Both the position numbers and the translations under genes were made by a program. Below are positions 521 to 25,420 of a stretch of 64,000 nucleotides of DNA, one piece after another; the first letter of the stretch is position 1, and each line of letters opens with the position of its first letter. The notes under the pieces are model-generated. The model did not search any database and was not told the origin of the DNA. It worked only from the letters and a program-made list of their open reading frames with translations. Location of the stretch: NCBI RefSeq assembly GCF_021654855.1, contig NZ_AP024202.1, positions 1,798,001-1,862,000 of the forward strand, given 5' to 3'. Origin of the DNA: Thiomicrorhabdus immobilis. GTDB taxonomy: Bacteria; Pseudomonadota; Gammaproteobacteria; Thiomicrospirales; Thiomicrospiraceae.

Positions 521-883
521 TTAAGCGTTTTGCTTCGCTTCATGTTTGGCGTTCGCTTCAGCCATCATTTTTTTCAGTTCACCAGATTCGGCCAACTCAA
601 GGGTAATATCACAACCACCTTGAAGTTCACCATCAATATAAAGCTGCGGGAACGTCGGCCAATCTTGGTATTTTGGAAGGTGCTCAAAAATAGTTGCATC
701 CGCTAAAATATTCACAAAAGCGAACTTCTCTTCTGTTTCCGCTAAAGCTTGCGCTGCGCGACTAGAAAAACCACAAGATGGCATTTGTGGAGTTCCTTTC
801 ATGTAAAGCACTACAGGATTGTTAGTAACTTGACTATGAATACGCTCTAATGTTTCTTTCACAATTGGATCTTGGTTTTCCAT
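521..883 (-). CDS. grxD: Monothiol glutaredoxin, Grx4/GrxD family
   Basis: This is a 120-aa single-domain glutaredoxin of the CGFS class, which binds and transfers [2Fe-2S] clusters using glutathione rather than acting as a general reductase. The active site is CGFS at residues 37-40, preceded by the family motif KGTPQMPSCGFS. WPTFPQLYIDGELQGGCDI supplies the cis-Pro and the glutathione-binding GGCD. Length is typical, with a charged, Ala-rich tail. A good ribosome site (AAGGAA) precedes the ATG. An IscR-like dyad at 915-939, which resembles the one in front of sufB, suggests control by Fe-S status. Confidence 0.95.
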   Translation of the reverse strand: MENQDPIVKETLERIHSQVTNNPVVLYMKGTPQMPSCGFSSRAAQALAETEEKFAFVNILADATIFEHLPKYQDWPTFPQLYIDGELQGGCDITLELAESGELKKMMAEANAKHEAKQNA

Positions 884-914
884 TCTTATATTCCTTGCTG
901 GTTTTAAATCTTGA

Positions 915-939
915 ATTCTTGACTATTTTACTAGGTTAT
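915..939 (-). promoter_or_regulatory. Candidate IscR type-1-like operator and promoter of grxD
   Basis: On the plus strand TTGACTATTTTACTAGGTTA reads almost the same as the segment upstream of sufB (25382-25406). On the minus strand the 25-mer matches about 21 of 25 positions of the IscR type-1 consensus as I remember it. It contains TAAAAT, a plausible -10 for grxD, so binding would repress. No IscR gene is in the window; regulator identity is inference. Confidence 0.55.
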
Positions 940-971
940 AATCAAAAAATATAGATAAAATTAGTGCTTTA

Positions 972-2795
972 TTAAATCGTTTTATCCACATGTTTTTGTA
1001 ACCAAAACTCCAATAAAGCTGCGTGCCACAATTTACTGCCCTGTATCGCCGTGAAAGCTTGTGGAGCTTCCGGGTTTGCCAATAATTCAGCCAACTTTTT
1101 CTGATTGAAGATACCGCGCTTTTGAGCCTGCGGTGAGGTCAGCAGAGTTTTCATATACTCAAAAAACTCACCACGAACATATTTTAAAGCCGGCATGGGA
1201 AACGCGACTTTTGGACGATCGATAATTTCATCCGGCACAATGCCTCGACCAATCTCTTTTAAAATATGCTTACCATCATTGAGTAGCTTAAGGTTATCCG
1301 GAGCGGCCATCGCCACTTCCACCAATTTATGGTCCAAAAAGGGAACTCGCGCCTCGAGCCCCCAAGCCATGGTCATATTATCGACTCGTTTAACCGGGTC
1401 ATCCACAATCAAAGTGGTCACATCAAAACGTAACACCTGATCTAAAAAGGTCTCCGCACCCTCTTCAGTTAAACAATCCCCCACATAATCTGAAGTCACA
1501 TCATGTAAATGATATTCCGGATTGACGACTTCAAGCCACTCTTGATGAGAACGGTCAAAATAAAAAGGGGCAAAAGCCGAAACCGCCTGTTGAGGACTTT
1601 TCAAATCGATGTTTTTTCCAGCTTCAGCCATTTTTGCATACCAAAAATAACCGCCGAAGACTTCATCCGCCCCCTGGCCAGACATAACAACCTTAACATC
1701 TTGCGAAACCTGCTCAGAAAGCAGGTAAAAAGCCACGGCATCTTGCCCAACCATCGGTTCGGACATCGCCTCAACCGCTTCATGCAATCGCGGTAAAACC
1801 TCATCATTGGATATCAGATATTTTTTATGGTCGGTTTGGTAACGTTCAACCACCAAATCTGAAAACTCAAACTCATTACCCTTCTCTTCAGGAGCGTCTT
1901 CAAAGCCGATAGAGAAGGTTTTAATATTTTTCACGCCCGCTTCGGCGAGCATCGCCACCACCAAGCTTGAATCCAAACCGCCCGAAAGCAAAACCCCAAC
2001 AGGCACATCAGAGGCGGTTAAACGTTTGTGTACCGCTTCTTTAAGAGAGGCATGCACTGCATCAATCCACTCTTTATCCGTTTTCGGTGCTGGCAAATCA
2101 TTTAAGCGTTCTGGGCGCTTCGCCTCTAAATGCCAATAACGTTTTTTGTACATTTGCCCATCTGGATTTACGATCAACCAATGCCCGGGTTCAAGTTTTT
2201 TAATCCCTTTCAAGATGGTATTAGGAGCGGGAATCACCGCATGTAAGGTCAACTGGTGATGCAAACCGACTGGATCGATACTGGTATCAATCCCATCCGT
2301 TGCCAATAGAGCTTGTGTGTTTGAGGCGAAACGAACACCGCCTTCAATAGGAGCATAATAGAGTGGTTTAATCCCTATTCGGTCACGTGCCATTAAAAGC
2401 TGATGTTGCTCATCATCCCAAATAGCGAAGGCAAACATACCTTCAAACCGCGTCACACAATCCATACCCCATTGACGATACGCTTTTAAGATAACTTCGG
2501 TATCTGAATGGGTGTTAAAGACCTGCCCCAACTCTTCAAGTTCTCTCTTTAACGCCTCATAATTATAGATGCAGCCGTTAAATACCAGTGTCAAGGCCTC
2601 ATCGACCATCGGCTGATGCCCTGCTGATGTTAAATCAATGATGGCTAAACGGCGGTGTCCTAAACCGACATGCTCACTTAACCATACACCTTCATCATCA
2701 GGCCCTCTTCGTTGCATAGCCTCAAGCATTGGAGAGATATTTTGTTTAGAAGCTTGTTGTCCGTTCCAATAGATTTCACCGCAAATACCACACAT
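972..2795 (-). CDS. Asparagine-synthetase-like amidotransferase, N-acetylglutaminylglutamine amide (NAGGN) type
   Basis: This 607-aa class II glutamine amidotransferase has a C-terminal asparagine synthetase domain. I chose the inner ATG at 2795 because it puts the nucleophile Cys directly after Met (MCGICGE); an upstream Met at 2819 would add 8 residues and bury it. Visible are the glutaminase motifs RRGPDD and FNGCIYNY, the PP-loop LLSGGLDSSL, MSGQGADEVFGGY and VDDPVKRVDNMTMAWGLEARVPFLD. FNGCIYNY, FSIGFEDA..EKGNEFEFSD and MSEPMVGQDAVAFYLLS resemble the amidotransferase that makes the osmolyte N-acetylglutaminylglutamine amide more than E. coli AsnB. Its usual partners (the Ngg synthetase and a peptidase) are not beside it, so ordinary asparagine synthetase remains possible. 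Confidence 0.75.
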   Translation of the reverse strand: MCGICGEIYWNGQQASKQNISPMLEAMQRRGPDDEGVWLSEHVGLGHRRLAIIDLTSAGHQPMVDEALTLVFNGCIYNYEALKRELEELGQVFNTHSDTEVILKAYRQWGMDCVTRFEGMFAFAIWDDEQHQLLMARDRIGIKPLYYAPIEGGVRFASNTQALLATDGIDTSIDPVGLHHQLTLHAVIPAPNTILKGIKKLEPGHWLIVNPDGQMYKKRYWHLEAKRPERLNDLPAPKTDKEWIDAVHASLKEAVHKRLTASDVPVGVLLSGGLDSSLVVAMLAEAGVKNIKTFSIGFEDAPEEKGNEFEFSDLVVERYQTDHKKYLISNDEVLPRLHEAVEAMSEPMVGQDAVAFYLLSEQVSQDVKVVMSGQGADEVFGGYFWYAKMAEAGKNIDLKSPQQAVSAFAPFYFDRSHQEWLEVVNPEYHLHDVTSDYVGDCLTEEGAETFLDQVLRFDVTTLIVDDPVKRVDNMTMAWGLEARVPFLDHKLVEVAMAAPDNLKLLNDGKHILKEIGRGIVPDEIIDRPKVAFPMPALKYVRGEFFEYMKTLLTSPQAQKRGIFNQKKLAELLANPEAPQAFTAIQGSKLWHAALLEFWLQKHVDKTI

Positions 2796-3185
2796 AACTT
2801 TTCTCAAATTCGTCATCAATTAATATTCGATTATTTTAACGAATTTACCGATATATAATTTTGTTTTGTGCAAAATCGCCTAAAGTCACAAATATGCCAT
2901 AAACTCAAACAGAACAAAGCGATTGGTTTAGACTCAAGCAACCGTGATTTGATAACGACTCTTTGCCATTTTGTTTTATGACCAAGCTTGCAAAACGATT
3001 TAAAATATACAATCGAAGAACCATAATTTCAGCTAATTGAAATCAGCATTATCTTATATCACTACAAAGTAAGAAAAAAAGCTTATAATTTACAAAAAAG
3101 ATTTATACAAATCCATTGAGATATCATTTCAATCGATTGGATTTAGATTTAAGGAACCACAACCAAAATTTTGGACTAAGTAACC
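2796..3185. other. Divergent intergenic region, 390 bp, no gene
   Basis: This AT-rich gap separates the minus-strand amidotransferase from the plus-strand hydrolase. A TATAAT at 3084-3089 could be a -10 for the hydrolase, but I see no good -35 at the right distance. At 3109-3144 there is an interrupted inverted repeat (AAATCC-ATTGA / TCAAT-cgatt-GGATTT). No tRNA, small ORF with a ribosome site, or known riboswitch was recognised. Confidence 0.5.
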
Positions 3186-19736: not shown

Positions 19737-20108
19737 TTACTGTAAAATGGTTGGCATATCTGTGGTTGAAGAGTTGTTATCTTCACTATCTAATTGATTG
19801 GATTGAAAATCAGGCTGTGCAACGGGTTGAGGGACAACCCAAAAATACTGCCCTAAAACAGCGGCTAATTCAGAGGGTTTTTGATAGGGATTGGTGATTT
19901 CAATGGAGCCTTGGGATACAAGAGTAATTGAACCCTGTTGAATGGCCGCATCGAGTTTATGTTTGATAAATTCGACATTCTCACCTTGCAAAATCCCCTC
20001 ATCCGAATTCCACCACAACAACATCGTTGGGTATTCGGATTCAAAGTTCGGCAATGGAACCAATTCGAGACGAATCCACTGGAGTGGTTTACTGTTTTCT
20101 GTATTCAT
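19737..20108 (-). CDS. Hypothetical protein
   Basis: A 123-aa acidic, soluble-looking protein that I do not recognise. It has no signal peptide, membrane segment or metal motif. It begins MNTENSKPLQWIRLELVPLP, has Trp-rich MLLWWNSDEG in the middle and a low-complexity Gln/Asn/Ser tail. The ATG at 20108 is preferred over a TTG at 20126; neither has a clear ribosome site. It lies on the same strand as sufBCDS and after them, but a hairpin with the iterated palindrome (20159-20184) separates it from sufS, so operon membership is uncertain. Confidence 0.6.
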   Translation of the reverse strand: MNTENSKPLQWIRLELVPLPNFESEYPTMLLWWNSDEGILQGENVEFIKHKLDAAIQQGSITLVSQGSIEITNPYQKPSELAAVLGQYFWVVPQPVAQPDFQSNQLDSEDNNSSTTDMPTILQ

Positions 20109-20158
20109 AAAAACAATATGCCACAAAAAACCATAAAAATAACTAAAAAAAGGAATTT

Positions 20159-20248: not shown

Positions 20249-21493
20249 TTATAAAAGCATCTCTTTGGCATCATTAATCGAGGCGATTAAACGATCGATA
20301 TCCTCAAAATTATTATAGGCACCAAAAGAGGCACGAATTGTCGCCGGCACATTAAAATGCTGCATCACCGGCATCGCACAGTGGTGGCTTGCCCTTACCG
20401 CAATCCCATCCTGATCCATTAAAGTGGCCATATCATGCGGATGCACACCGTCCAACACAAATGAAATCACTCCACCTTTATTCTCGGCTTGACCGATAAT
20501 CCTTAAACCATCGATTTGTGACAACTGTTCAGTCGCATATTCCAAAAGCGCATGTTCATGCCTGGCAAGATTATCCAAACCCACTTCATTTAAAAAATCG
20601 ATTGCGGCAGCCAAACCGATCGCCCCAGAAATATGCGGTGTTCCGGCTTCAAACTTATACGGCAAGACGTTATATTCCGTCTTATCGAAACTCACCGAAT
20701 AAATCATGTCTCCACCACCTTGGTAAGGAGCCATTTTCTCTAATAACGCCTCTTTGGCATAGAGCACACCGATACCGGTCGGGCCGTACATTTTGTGCCC
20801 CGAAAAGGCATAAAAGTCACAATCCAGATCTTGCACATCCACCGACATATGCGGTGTAGCCTGTGCGCCATCCACCATGATTTTAGCGCCAACGGAATGA
20901 GCTATCTCAGCCATCTCTTTTACCGGATTAATCGTACCCAAAGCGTTTGACATATGGGTAACGGAAACCATTTTGGTTTTTTCAGAAACCAACCCTTTCA
21001 ATGCATTAAGGCAAATCTCACCCTTTTGATTCATACGTAATACGGTCAGACGAATCCCCAGCTTATCCCTAAGCAACTGCCAAGGCACAATATTCGAGTG
21101 GTGCTCCATCTCAGTGACAATCACTTCATCACCTTCGGTCAAGTTTTCTGAAACCCAACTATGTGCTACTAAATTGATTGCCTCGGTGGTACCACGAACA
21201 AACACGATTTCTTTAGTGCTTTTAGCATTTAAAAAAGTTCTGACTTTCTCACGCGCACCTTCATATTTTTCAGTGGCACGCTCACTTAAACCATAAACAC
21301 CACGGTGAACGTTGGCATTCTCTTCACGATAATATTGAGTAACGGCATCAATCACTCTTTGCGGTTTTTGCGATGTGGCCCCACTGTCCAAATAGACCAA
21401 AGGAAAGCCATTTTCCACCACCTCTAAAATCGGAAACTGAGCTCGCACCTGAGCAAAATCAACGCTATTTTTTGACATACTAATTTCTGACAT
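20249..21493 (-). CDS. sufS: Cysteine desulfurase SufS
   Basis: A PLP enzyme (414 aa, class II desulfurase) that takes sulfur from cysteine for Fe-S cluster assembly. Motifs: YLDSGATSQKP near the N-terminus, TEMEHHSNIVPW, FSGHKMYGPTGIGVLY (Schiff-base Lys), and RASHHCAMPVMQHF with the persulfide-forming Cys. Start ATG at 21493 (MSEISMSKN); an alternative ATG lies 15 bp downstream. It is last in sufB-sufC-sufD-sufS; a 134-bp AT-rich gap separates it from sufD. No SufE, SufU or SufA is encoded in the window. Confidence 0.95.
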   Translation of the reverse strand: MSEISMSKNSVDFAQVRAQFPILEVVENGFPLVYLDSGATSQKPQRVIDAVTQYYREENANVHRGVYGLSERATEKYEGAREKVRTFLNAKSTKEIVFVRGTTEAINLVAHSWVSENLTEGDEVIVTEMEHHSNIVPWQLLRDKLGIRLTVLRMNQKGEICLNALKGLVSEKTKMVSVTHMSNALGTINPVKEMAEIAHSVGAKIMVDGAQATPHMSVDVQDLDCDFYAFSGHKMYGPTGIGVLYAKEALLEKMAPYQGGGDMIYSVSFDKTEYNVLPYKFEAGTPHISGAIGLAAAIDFLNEVGLDNLARHEHALLEYATEQLSQIDGLRIIGQAENKGGVISFVLDGVHPHDMATLMDQDGIAVRASHHCAMPVMQHFNVPATIRASFGAYNNFEDIDRLIASINDAKEMLL

Positions 21494-21627: not shown

Positions 21628-22965
21628 TTACTTTTGAATACTCGCTAAACCTGCCGATAGACGATTGATGACCCAATGGCGAATCGCATCATTGGCAATC
21701 ACTTCAGCAGGCTCCAATAGGAAGGCGTGGGTAATCATTTTGATTGCATCCGCTCTACGAATACCGCGTGCTTGCAGGTAGAAAATCTGGTTTTTATCAA
21801 TCTGCCCCGAAGCTGAACCATGCGAGCACTTAACATCATCAGCATAGATTTCCAGCTGAGGTTTAGTGTCCATTTTGGCGCTGTCAGATAACAATAAATT
21901 CTTATTATCCATTTGACCATCGGTTTTTTGTGCCTTTTGATCAACCCGTATCATACCGTTGAACACCCCAACCGCCTGGTCGGTCAACACATATTTATGT
22001 AATTGCTGGCTATTACCCCAAACATCGTTATGCTGGGTATCAGTGCGTGAATCAACCGTTTCTTTGTCTTTAGCTAAACAAGCGCTATTCTGCTGACTTT
22101 CAATATGCTCACCATTCATGAAAATATGATTTTGGTGACGGGAAAGTTGACTGCCGGCCGAACCATAGAAAGTCATACATGAGCTATTGTCAGCTTGATA
22201 GATAAACTGGTTATTGAAATAGAACGCATTATCACTCTGCTCTTGCATAACAACCTGTTTAAAACGCGCGCTTTTTGCCATATTGACTTCCGTCACCACA
22301 TTGGTACAAGAGGCCGCTTGATTGCTTTCTGTCAACGATTCAAGCGAGACAAAACGCTCAACCAGAGTCAACTCGGCATTTTCGGCCAAATCAATACGAT
22401 TACGCACATTGCACATGTGATTGCTGCCGGTTTGAATATTCAATACAAATAGCGGCAGGTCGGAATAGGCATTCGCCCCGACTTGCAAATAAAAACCATC
22501 CGCTAACAGCAAGCTGTTTAAAACACCAAATGGCTCTTTGGTAATGTGCTTTTCGCGATCAAAGAGAGCCTCGGTATCACCGGCTATATCATAAGCTTCT
22601 CTCAATGACTCAAAGGTCAAGCCTTTAGGCAAGGCGTCTAAATCATCCGACAGGCTCTCATTAAACCAACCATCAACAAACACCACCATGGTCACCGCAA
22701 AATCAGGCATGAACTGACGAACCTGTTCACTAGTGACTTTATTCGCCTGTTTTACCGCAAAATGATTTTGCACAAAACCGGTTAAACGAGTGTACTGCCA
22801 ATCCTCGTCACGCTGTGTAGGAAAGGCTTGTTGCTGCAATAAAGCCTGAGCTTGCTGACGAATTTGCTTTAAAGTCGGGTTATCGCAAGTTTGATTCAAC
22901 TTTTCAGACTCAGCAATATAATGAGCTACCGCTTGCTTAGCTACGGGAGATATTTTTCTTTGCAT
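21628..22965 (-). CDS. sufD: Fe-S cluster assembly protein SufD
   Basis: A scaffold partner in the SufBC2D complex (445 aa). The N-terminal part is helical (AVAHYIAESEKLNQ, QRDEDWQYTRLTGFV), then a long right-handed beta-helix, and the conserved end DVKCSHGSASGQIDKNQIFYLQARGI with the His used in cluster assembly. This C-terminal signature is shared with SufB but the protein lacks SufB's extra cysteines. It is 18 bp downstream of sufC and likely translated with it. Confidence 0.94.
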   Translation of the reverse strand: MQRKISPVAKQAVAHYIAESEKLNQTCDNPTLKQIRQQAQALLQQQAFPTQRDEDWQYTRLTGFVQNHFAVKQANKVTSEQVRQFMPDFAVTMVVFVDGWFNESLSDDLDALPKGLTFESLREAYDIAGDTEALFDREKHITKEPFGVLNSLLLADGFYLQVGANAYSDLPLFVLNIQTGSNHMCNVRNRIDLAENAELTLVERFVSLESLTESNQAASCTNVVTEVNMAKSARFKQVVMQEQSDNAFYFNNQFIYQADNSSCMTFYGSAGSQLSRHQNHIFMNGEHIESQQNSACLAKDKETVDSRTDTQHNDVWGNSQQLHKYVLTDQAVGVFNGMIRVDQKAQKTDGQMDNKNLLLSDSAKMDTKPQLEIYADDVKCSHGSASGQIDKNQIFYLQARGIRRADAIKMITHAFLLEPAEVIANDAIRHWVINRLSAGLASIQK

Positions 22966-22983: not shown

Positions 22984-23754
22984 TTAATCGTTTGGATTTT
23001 GATTCTGATATTGTTTGATGATTTCGTCGTAACCGTTTTCTTCAAGTTCATGCACCAGTTCAAAACCGCCTGATTTGACGATTTTACCGTTATATAGAAC
23101 ATGCACGTGATCCGGTTTAATGTAATCCAAAAGACGCTGATAATGCGTTACCACGATAAAACTACGCTCTGGTGAACGAAGTGCGTTAACCCCGTTTGCC
23201 ACGACACGTAACGCATCGATATCAAGTCCAGAATCGGTCTCATCAAGAATACAAAGTTTAGGTTCTAGCAATGCCATTTGAAAGATGTCGTTACGCTTTT
23301 TCTCGCCACCCGAGAAGCCGACATTGACCGAACGCTCAAGCAAATCAGCACGCATATCCAACAGCTCGATTTTCGCTTTAGCGAACTCATCGAAATCGAA
23401 CATATCCAAAGCGGGTAAACCGCGTTCTTCACGCACTGCATTTAAGGCCGTTTGCATAAACAACTTATTGCTGACACCTGGGATTTCCACCGGGTATTGG
23501 AATGCTAAAAACACACCTTTACGCGCACGGTCTTCCGCATCAAGCTCTAATAAATCTTCACCATCAAATTCGGCTGAGCCCCCGGTCACTTCATAATCAT
23601 CTCGACCTGAAAGCACATTTGCCAAGGTACTTTTACCGGCACCGTTTGGCCCCATGATTGCATGGACTTCACCTGACTTAACTTCTAGGTTTAAGCCCTT
23701 AAGAATTTGTTTATCATCGATTTCAGCTTGTAGGTTTTCTACTTTTAATAACAT
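22984..23754 (-). CDS. sufC: Fe-S cluster assembly ATPase SufC
   Basis: An ABC-type ATPase without membrane partner (256 aa) that powers the SufBC2D scaffold. Walker A is GPNGAGKSTLANVLSG, Q-loop in FLAFQYPVEIPGVS, signature NVGFSGGEKKRNDIF, Walker B LCILDETDSGLDIDAL and switch His in VVTHYQRLLDYI. The GEKKRN and DETDSGLDI variants are diagnostic for SufC over ordinary ABC transporters. It sits between sufB and sufD. Confidence 0.97.
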   Translation of the reverse strand: MLLKVENLQAEIDDKQILKGLNLEVKSGEVHAIMGPNGAGKSTLANVLSGRDDYEVTGGSAEFDGEDLLELDAEDRARKGVFLAFQYPVEIPGVSNKLFMQTALNAVREERGLPALDMFDFDEFAKAKIELLDMRADLLERSVNVGFSGGEKKRNDIFQMALLEPKLCILDETDSGLDIDALRVVANGVNALRSPERSFIVVTHYQRLLDYIKPDHVHVLYNGKIVKSGGFELVHELEENGYDEIIKQYQNQNPND

Positions 23755-23844: not shown

Positions 23845-25359
23845 TTATCCAACAGAACCTTCTAAACTAATGGCCAACAACTCTTCAGCTTCTTGCGCAA
23901 ACTCTAATGGCAGTTCACTGAACACTTCTTTACAGAAACCATTCACAATCATTGAAATTGCATCTTGCTCACTAATACCGCGTTGTTTGCAATAAAACAG
24001 CTGATCTTCACCGATACGAGAAGTGGTCGCTTCGTGTTCAACCTGAGCGGTTGGATTTTCCACTTCTATATACGGAAAAGTATGTGCACCACACTGATCG
24101 CCTATCAGCATCGAATCACACTGGGTAAAGTTACGCGCCCCTTCGGCACTAGGCAAAATCTTCACCAAACCACGGTAAGTGTTATCACTTTTACCGGCAG
24201 ACAAGCCTTTTGAAATAATGGTGCTGCGGGTGTTTTTACCGATATGAATCATTTTGGTTCCGGTATCCGCCTGCTGTCTACGATTGGTTAAGGCTACCGA
24301 GTAGAACTCACCAATCGAATTATCCCCTTTCAAAATACAACTTGGGTATTTCCAGGTAATCGCTGAACCGGTTTCCGCTTGAGTCCAAGACAATTTAGAA
24401 TTCTTACCTTCGCAAATTCCGCGTTTGGTAACAAAATTCAGAATCCCGCCTGTGCAGTCATCATCCCCCGGATACCAGTTTTGTACCGTTGAATACTTCA
24501 CTTCGGCATCTTCGTGAACAATCACCTCTACCACCGCCGCATGCAACTGGTAGGTATCACGAACCGGTGCAGAACAACCTTCAAGATAACTGACATAACT
24601 GCCTTTATCGGCAATTAAAATCGTTCTTTCAAACTGGCCGGTTTTGGCTTCGTTGATACGGAAATAGGTTGATAGGTCGATCGGGCAACGCACTCCTTCA
24701 GGGATATACACAAAAGTACCATCTGAAGCCACAGCTGAGTTCAATGCCGCAAAGTAGTTGTCATGATGCGGCACCACTGTACCGATGTACTGCTGAACCA
24801 TTTCGGGATAATCTTGAACCGCTTCTGAAAATGAACAGAAAATGATACCCAACTCGGCTAAGTCTTCTCGCTTGGTGGTCGAAACAGAAATCGAATCAAA
24901 AATCGCATCCACCGCCACATTGGCATCATCGCCCATAATAGGTACACCCAACTCGGCAAACGCTTTGGCGACTTCAGGATCGATTTCAGGTTCTGCGTTT
25001 TCGTCAGTGCTACAAGTGCCGGCACATGAACCACACTCTGGCGCCGAGTAATAACTATAATCTTGATAGTCTAACGGAGTGTATTCCGCTTTCGCCCAAT
25101 GCGGCTCTTCTAGGGTTTTCCAGTGTGCGAAAGCTTTTAATCTAAAGTCTAACATCCACTCCGGCTCATTCTTTTTCGCAGAAATCGCACGAACAACGTC
25201 TTCATTCAGCCCTTTTGCAAAAGTTTCAACGTTAGTCGTGGTTACAAACCCCTCTTTATAGTGCTTGTTTTTAGAAAGCAGATCATCAATCTCTTGATAT
25301 TGACTGCCTTCTTGCACATTTTGTGGTTGTAATTCTGTTATTTTTGCTGCTTCAGCCAT
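23845..25359 (-). CDS. sufB: Fe-S cluster assembly protein SufB
   Basis: The main scaffold subunit (504 aa) on which the nascent Fe-S cluster is built. Seen: [18 protein letters not shown] at the N-terminus, the cysteine-bearing CGSCAGTC segment, [56 protein letters not shown] and the closing [25 protein letters not shown]. It is the first gene of sufBCDS. Its promoter overlaps an IscR-like dyad (25382-25420). No iscR or sufR gene precedes it. Confidence 0.97.
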
Positions 25360-25381: not shown

Positions 25382-25420
25382 ATTTCTGAGTATTTTAGTA
25401 GGTTATTAATAAAATGTCTA
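25382..25420 (-). promoter_or_regulatory. sufB promoter with IscR type-1-like operator
   Basis: On the minus strand TAGACA (25415-25420) and TAAAAT (25392-25397) are separated by exactly 17 bp, a good sigma-70 promoter. The -10 lies inside the 25-bp segment 25382-25406, which matches about 20 of 25 positions of the IscR type-1 consensus as I remember it and shares TATTTTA.TAGGTTAT with the site in front of grxD. Overlap with the -10 predicts repression when clusters are plentiful. Confidence 0.6.

Follow-up and report, generated by a model that had tools for sequence, protein, structure and literature searches.

A segment of 25 base pairs (bp) at positions 915-939 of the 64-kilobase (kb) stretch of the Thiomicrorhabdus immobilis genome analysed here (the window) is very probably an IscR type-1 operator that co-controls grxD, the gene for a CGFS monothiol glutaredoxin, with the suf operon and iscR, and repression by holo-IscR is the predicted outcome. 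We give this reading a probability of about 0.88. IscR is a well-known iron-sulfur (Fe-S) sensor, and the host is a sulfur-oxidising gammaproteobacterium of the Thiomicrorhabdus type. The three loci are probably switched together, and the operator is of a known kind in a lineage-specific arrangement and regulon. The initial annotation of the window had proposed an operator of the Fe-S type that couples Suf with the CGFS glutaredoxin and had left the regulator unnamed; the present analysis names it as IscR. The proposed coupling is supported by the known type-1 box, the single IscR with its ligands, and the family-wide conservation of the box before sufB, grxD and iscR.

A shared 25-bp box ahead of grxD, sufB and iscR

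The grxD gene (521..883, minus strand) encodes a protein of the Grx4 type, as judged by its score against TIGR00365 (140 bits, cut-off 117) and the CGFS active site in its translation. The near-palindromic 25-mer ATTCTTGACTATTTTACTAGGTTAT (915..939, no strand assigned) lies 31 bp from the grxD ATG, within the 88 bp that separate grxD from the end of an asparagine synthase gene (972-2819, minus strand). From its sequence and the alignment of relatives we infer that this gap (884..971, minus strand) is the grxD promoter region. The sister box ATTTCTGAGTATTTTAGTAGGTTAT (25382..25406, no strand assigned) lies 22 bp from the sufB ATG, and 51 of the 55 relatives keep it. With grxD and sufB both encoded on the minus strand, each box has its GGTTAT end facing away from its gene. 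The shared core reported by the initial annotation, TATTTTACTAGGTTAT at 924-939 and TATTTTAGTAGGTTAT at 25391-25406, recurs as the only two matches without mismatch in the window, each preceded by the TGA that had also been pointed out (920-922 and 25387-25389). The interval first given for the grxD site is exact, since the full unit spans 25 bp, at 915-939 and at 25382-25406.

The consensus published for type-1 sites of E. coli IscR, ATASYYGACTRWWWYAGTCRRSTAT (quoted in PMC6599224), is identical to its reverse complement, and the grxD and sufB segments fit it frame for frame. With 21/25 matching positions the grxD box is the single top score of the window, and the sufB box, with 20/25, is joint second. 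Because the consensus is independent of the genome under study and the motif found there plays no part, the comparison is free of circularity. A score of at least 19/25 was reached in about 1% of 421 control bins of 300 bp and in none of the 215 AT-rich bins.

Across the genome, a single contig of 2.54 megabases (C1), the joint 25-bp pattern without mismatches occurs in only three places, ahead of iscR, grxD and sufB. The iscR match, which had been predicted beforehand, is an autoregulation-type box, ATAGTTGAGTTAATTACTTGGTTAT (C1:1781168-1781192), with 20/25. A sequence-only covariance model built from 59 sites of the genus ranks sufB (expectation value, E, 3e-5), grxD (4.6e-5) and iscR (0.02) first, and the next match has E 0.137. 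The pattern relaxed to three mismatches was dropped as a regulon finder, as its counts lay near those of reversed-pattern controls; only strong matches therefore carry weight.

Conservation of the boxes among relatives

Upstream regions were collected from the family for sufB (55), iscR (55) and grxD (56), and a box was counted at 18/25 or more to the E. coli consensus, with dinucleotide-preserving shuffles as the control. The box is found before sufB in 93% of cases (5.6% in shuffles), before iscR in 89% (5%) and before grxD in 62% (5.5%). Two relatives (G001 and G008) carry a perfect 25/25 palindrome, ATAGTTGACTAAAATAGTCAACTAT, before sufB. In an alignment of the relatives anchored on the box, its 25 positions hold 28-36 bits, and most flanking bases are low. 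Depending on the species, the grxD box is placed between -44 and -246 relative to the matched start, so it is no by-product of sequence relatedness beside the gene. Among the Grx loci outside the family (L056-L099) there is no general conservation at 18/25, the exception being a related sequence that recurs consistently at -83 to -108 in several Thiohalocapsa.

These patterns bear on whether the boxes could be chance matches of AT-rich promoter sequence, a TAAAAT -10 element with its surroundings, that share no regulator. The TAAAAT core can indeed be read as a -10 element, and the near-control counts at three mismatches point the same way. However, the full 25-bp palindromes are conserved while their flanks have diverged, the AT-rich control bins never attain 19/25, and iscR, a third gene, carries its box at a different position relative to the promoter. 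With the family-wide footprint already disfavouring it, we regard a chance origin as the least probable of the explanations considered, to the point of being negligible.

IscR and its cluster ligands

One IscR is encoded in the genome (C1:1780701-1781129), 17 kb from grxD and 42 kb from sufB, with an iscA gene following it. Its best match among all Rrf2 models is TIGR02010 (200.7-201.2 bits), and its nearest structures are those of E. coli IscR. A gap-free alignment to the E. coli protein (4hf0) shows that Cys92, Cys98, Cys104 and His107 are retained, as are the DNA-contact residues Glu43 and Arg59 (4hf0 numbering), and the same holds in the other relatives checked. No second Rrf2-family match was found in this genome at E of at most 0.001.

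The boxes might instead be operators of another regulator of iron or Fe-S metabolism, such as Fur, NsrR or a RirA- or SufR-like protein, and according to the literature suf of other bacteria is often under Fur control. Fur was the rival motif compared: positions 881-975 match its consensus at 10/19 at best, less than the average of 10.9 in shuffles, and the Fur-box reading was rejected. With this poor match, with no further Rrf2-family protein at the threshold above, and with a box that fits the type-1 consensus, control by a regulator other than IscR is very improbable.

Overlap with core promoters and predicted repression

In the sufB upstream regions TAGACA or TGGACA (TxGACA) is kept exactly 17 bp before TAAAAT, which lies inside the box. 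The predicted sufB core promoter of this genome, TAGACA-17 bp-TAAAAT (25392..25420, minus strand), is conserved among relatives in its hexamers and their spacing and not in the adjoining bases. At iscR it is the -35 hexamer (TTGAGT) that lies inside the box, with the -10 hexamer (TAGAAT) following after 17 bp. The TAAAAT within the grxD box is a plausible candidate -10, with a weak -35. The overlap of box and core promoter is thus clear for sufB and iscR, where the hexamers are conserved, and at grxD it concerns the -10. Given these positions, bound IscR would cover core promoter elements of all three genes.

All promoters with known type-1 sites are repressed, and these sites are bound by the holo form of IscR (PMC8593673, PMC8561392). 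Most likely, then, [2Fe-2S]-IscR represses suf, grxD and iscR. When clusters are plentiful, [2Fe-2S]-IscR would bind the 25-bp palindrome and cover the -10 region of grxD, while the sister box would place it over the -10 of sufBCDS and the third box over the -35 and spacer of iscR, and RNA polymerase would thereby be excluded. When clusters run short, under low iron or oxidants, apo- or oxidised IscR would leave the type-1 sites, so that repression of Suf, of the carrier Grx4 as its partner and of the sensor IscR itself would be lifted together. What the sequence shows is the identity of the box, an IscR gene that keeps its ligands, the set of three genes, the conservation of their boxes, the overlap of these with predicted promoters, and the lack of IscU; the binding of IscR, the sign of regulation and the signal are what we infer.

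IscR could also act at grxD or suf as an activator, as it does at E. coli sufA. In E. coli, apo-IscR activates suf from a type-2 site, and the sign of regulation there switches when promoter elements are shifted slightly (PMC8561392). The box here is of type 1, however, the class whose known promoters are repressed; it covers the -10, a position expected to block the polymerase, and the sufB promoter already has a good -35. Activation is thus unlikely in the extreme, if the least improbable of the three alternatives to repression by holo-IscR through a type-1 box.

Several observations weigh against holo-IscR control of the three genes. The model ranking is partly circular, as the model includes these very sites, and IscR scores slightly under the NCBIfam equivalog cut-off (200.7 against 207.55 bits). 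The weak -35 leaves the grxD promoter assignment tentative. The grxD box is absent or unrecognisable in about a third of relatives, among them a Thiomicrorhabdus clade (G002, G009, G035, G048 and G051) that has an intact IscR. That this clade has lost a recognisable grxD box, and that some of its iscR boxes look degenerate, with the IscR ligands intact, suggests turnover of the regulon. Another relative, G050, from which IscR and grxD are both absent, was set aside as a natural experiment: in T. immobilis about 17 kb separate iscR from grxD, and a regional or assembly gap could explain the joint absence. Its sufB box is intact.

The suf operon and further candidate members

The sufB gene (23845..25359; TIGR01980, 632 bits, cut-off 346) is the first of a sufB-C-D-S operon on the minus strand, followed by sufC (22984..23754; TIGR01978, 370 bits, cut-off 213), sufD (21628..22965; TIGR01981, 236 bits, cut-off 222) and a gene for a SufS-family cysteine desulfurase (20249..21493; TIGR01979, 597 bits, cut-off 475). 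Directly downstream of sufS on the same strand, an open reading frame of 129 amino acids (window 19737-20126) without a Pfam or NCBIfam match occupies the spot often held by sufE, sufU or sufT.

The initial annotation had further expected sites at erpA, nfuA and fdx, and this expectation was not borne out: the genome-wide model scan gave no such site above background, a negative that rests on the scan for sites, with the presence of nfuA and fdx genes not separately checked. At an erpA-like locus there is no convincing box near the gene. Weaker boxes precede the genes for an Fe/Mn superoxide dismutase (C1:345578, 20/25), selO (C1:508230-508254, 19/25) and a DUF2189 protein (C1:2402082-2402106, 18/25).

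In 21 genomes of the genus nearly all of the strongest model matches fall at the three core genes, and 16 others were inspected; the recurrence of these extra members is given as raw counts. Boxes of 19-21/25 occur at selO (ydiU) in three Thiomicrorhabdus genomes, weakly in the present one (G000) and also at L272:1282 and L279:1263. In E. coli, IscR targets ydiU by way of a type-2 site (PMC12594620, PMC8561392). The gene for the DUF2189 integral membrane protein has boxes of 18-20/25 in this genome and at L274:1323 and L284:1234. A family of proteins of about 110 residues, without a Pfam or NCBIfam match and with the motif ...KEVDMMPGQWAEPGNPTPYELR...TCKRLW..., has type-1-like boxes of 16-17/25 upstream in four genomes (L273:1312, L276:1313, L278:1268 and L280:1297); T. 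immobilis has two copies (C1:1610668-1610898 and C1:2442332-2442667), neither with a clear box. Three more loci (L281:1296, L277:1317 and L282:1276) have boxes at genes for SufE (one genome) and a PrxQ-like peroxiredoxin (two genomes).

Comparison with known systems

The arrangement shares with the E. coli IscR type-1 regulon (isc, erpA, nfuA) the 25-bp palindrome, the IscR ligands and the autoregulatory iscR box, whereas the targets here are sufBCDS and grxD, IscU is missing, and erpA and nfuA are not matched. The grxD gene of E. coli, examined as a candidate ancestral target, has no type-1 box, its best score being 15/25. Control of suf by IscR according to cluster supply is also known in E. 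coli, where it works through a type-2 site and activation by apo-IscR, beside Fur and OxyR; in T. immobilis, by contrast, a type-1 box lies over the -10, from which holo-IscR is predicted to repress. In the iscR-suf operons of alphaproteobacteria (Caulobacter, Rhodobacter) Suf is likewise the main system and IscR represses when iron is plentiful (PMC11475020, PMC4618611), whereas here iscR is unlinked to suf (42 kb from sufB), with a classical type-1 box as the site. RisR of Myxococcus is another holo-Rrf2 repressor of suf (PMC9973013), but it differs in Rrf2 subfamily, cluster and DNA site. A literature search for IscR together with Thiomicrospira turned up nothing on this regulon, though RegPrecise was not covered and an earlier computational prediction may exist.

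IscR in an apparently Suf-only lineage

IscU was not found in any of the 59 family genomes (59/59) by a model that detects it in E. coli and ten other controls, and SufB matches are present in all family genomes checked. Suf thus appears to be the sole scaffold, and IscR, having no ISC scaffold to report on, most likely reports Suf output. Most bacteria with a single system have Suf alone (PMC11559095). It is moderately likely that across the family, which lacks IscU, an IscR left over from ISC, beside an orphan IscA, runs a housekeeping Suf through type-1 boxes, with a regulon rebuilt around grxD and a lineage-variable set of selO, the DUF2189 membrane protein, the protein of about 110 residues, SufE and the PrxQ-like peroxiredoxin.

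The E. coli grxD gene is synthetically lethal with iscU, which has been interpreted as a sign that GrxD acts together with Suf (PMC8593673), and the predicted co-regulation of grxD and suf would fit such a partnership. The logic of IscR is understood mainly from cases with ISC as the housekeeping system, and this lineage offers a clean Suf-only case within the gammaproteobacteria. The direct prediction is that holo-IscR co-represses suf and grxD, which would explain how a cluster carrier that is genetically linked to Suf in E. coli comes to be made in step with Suf.
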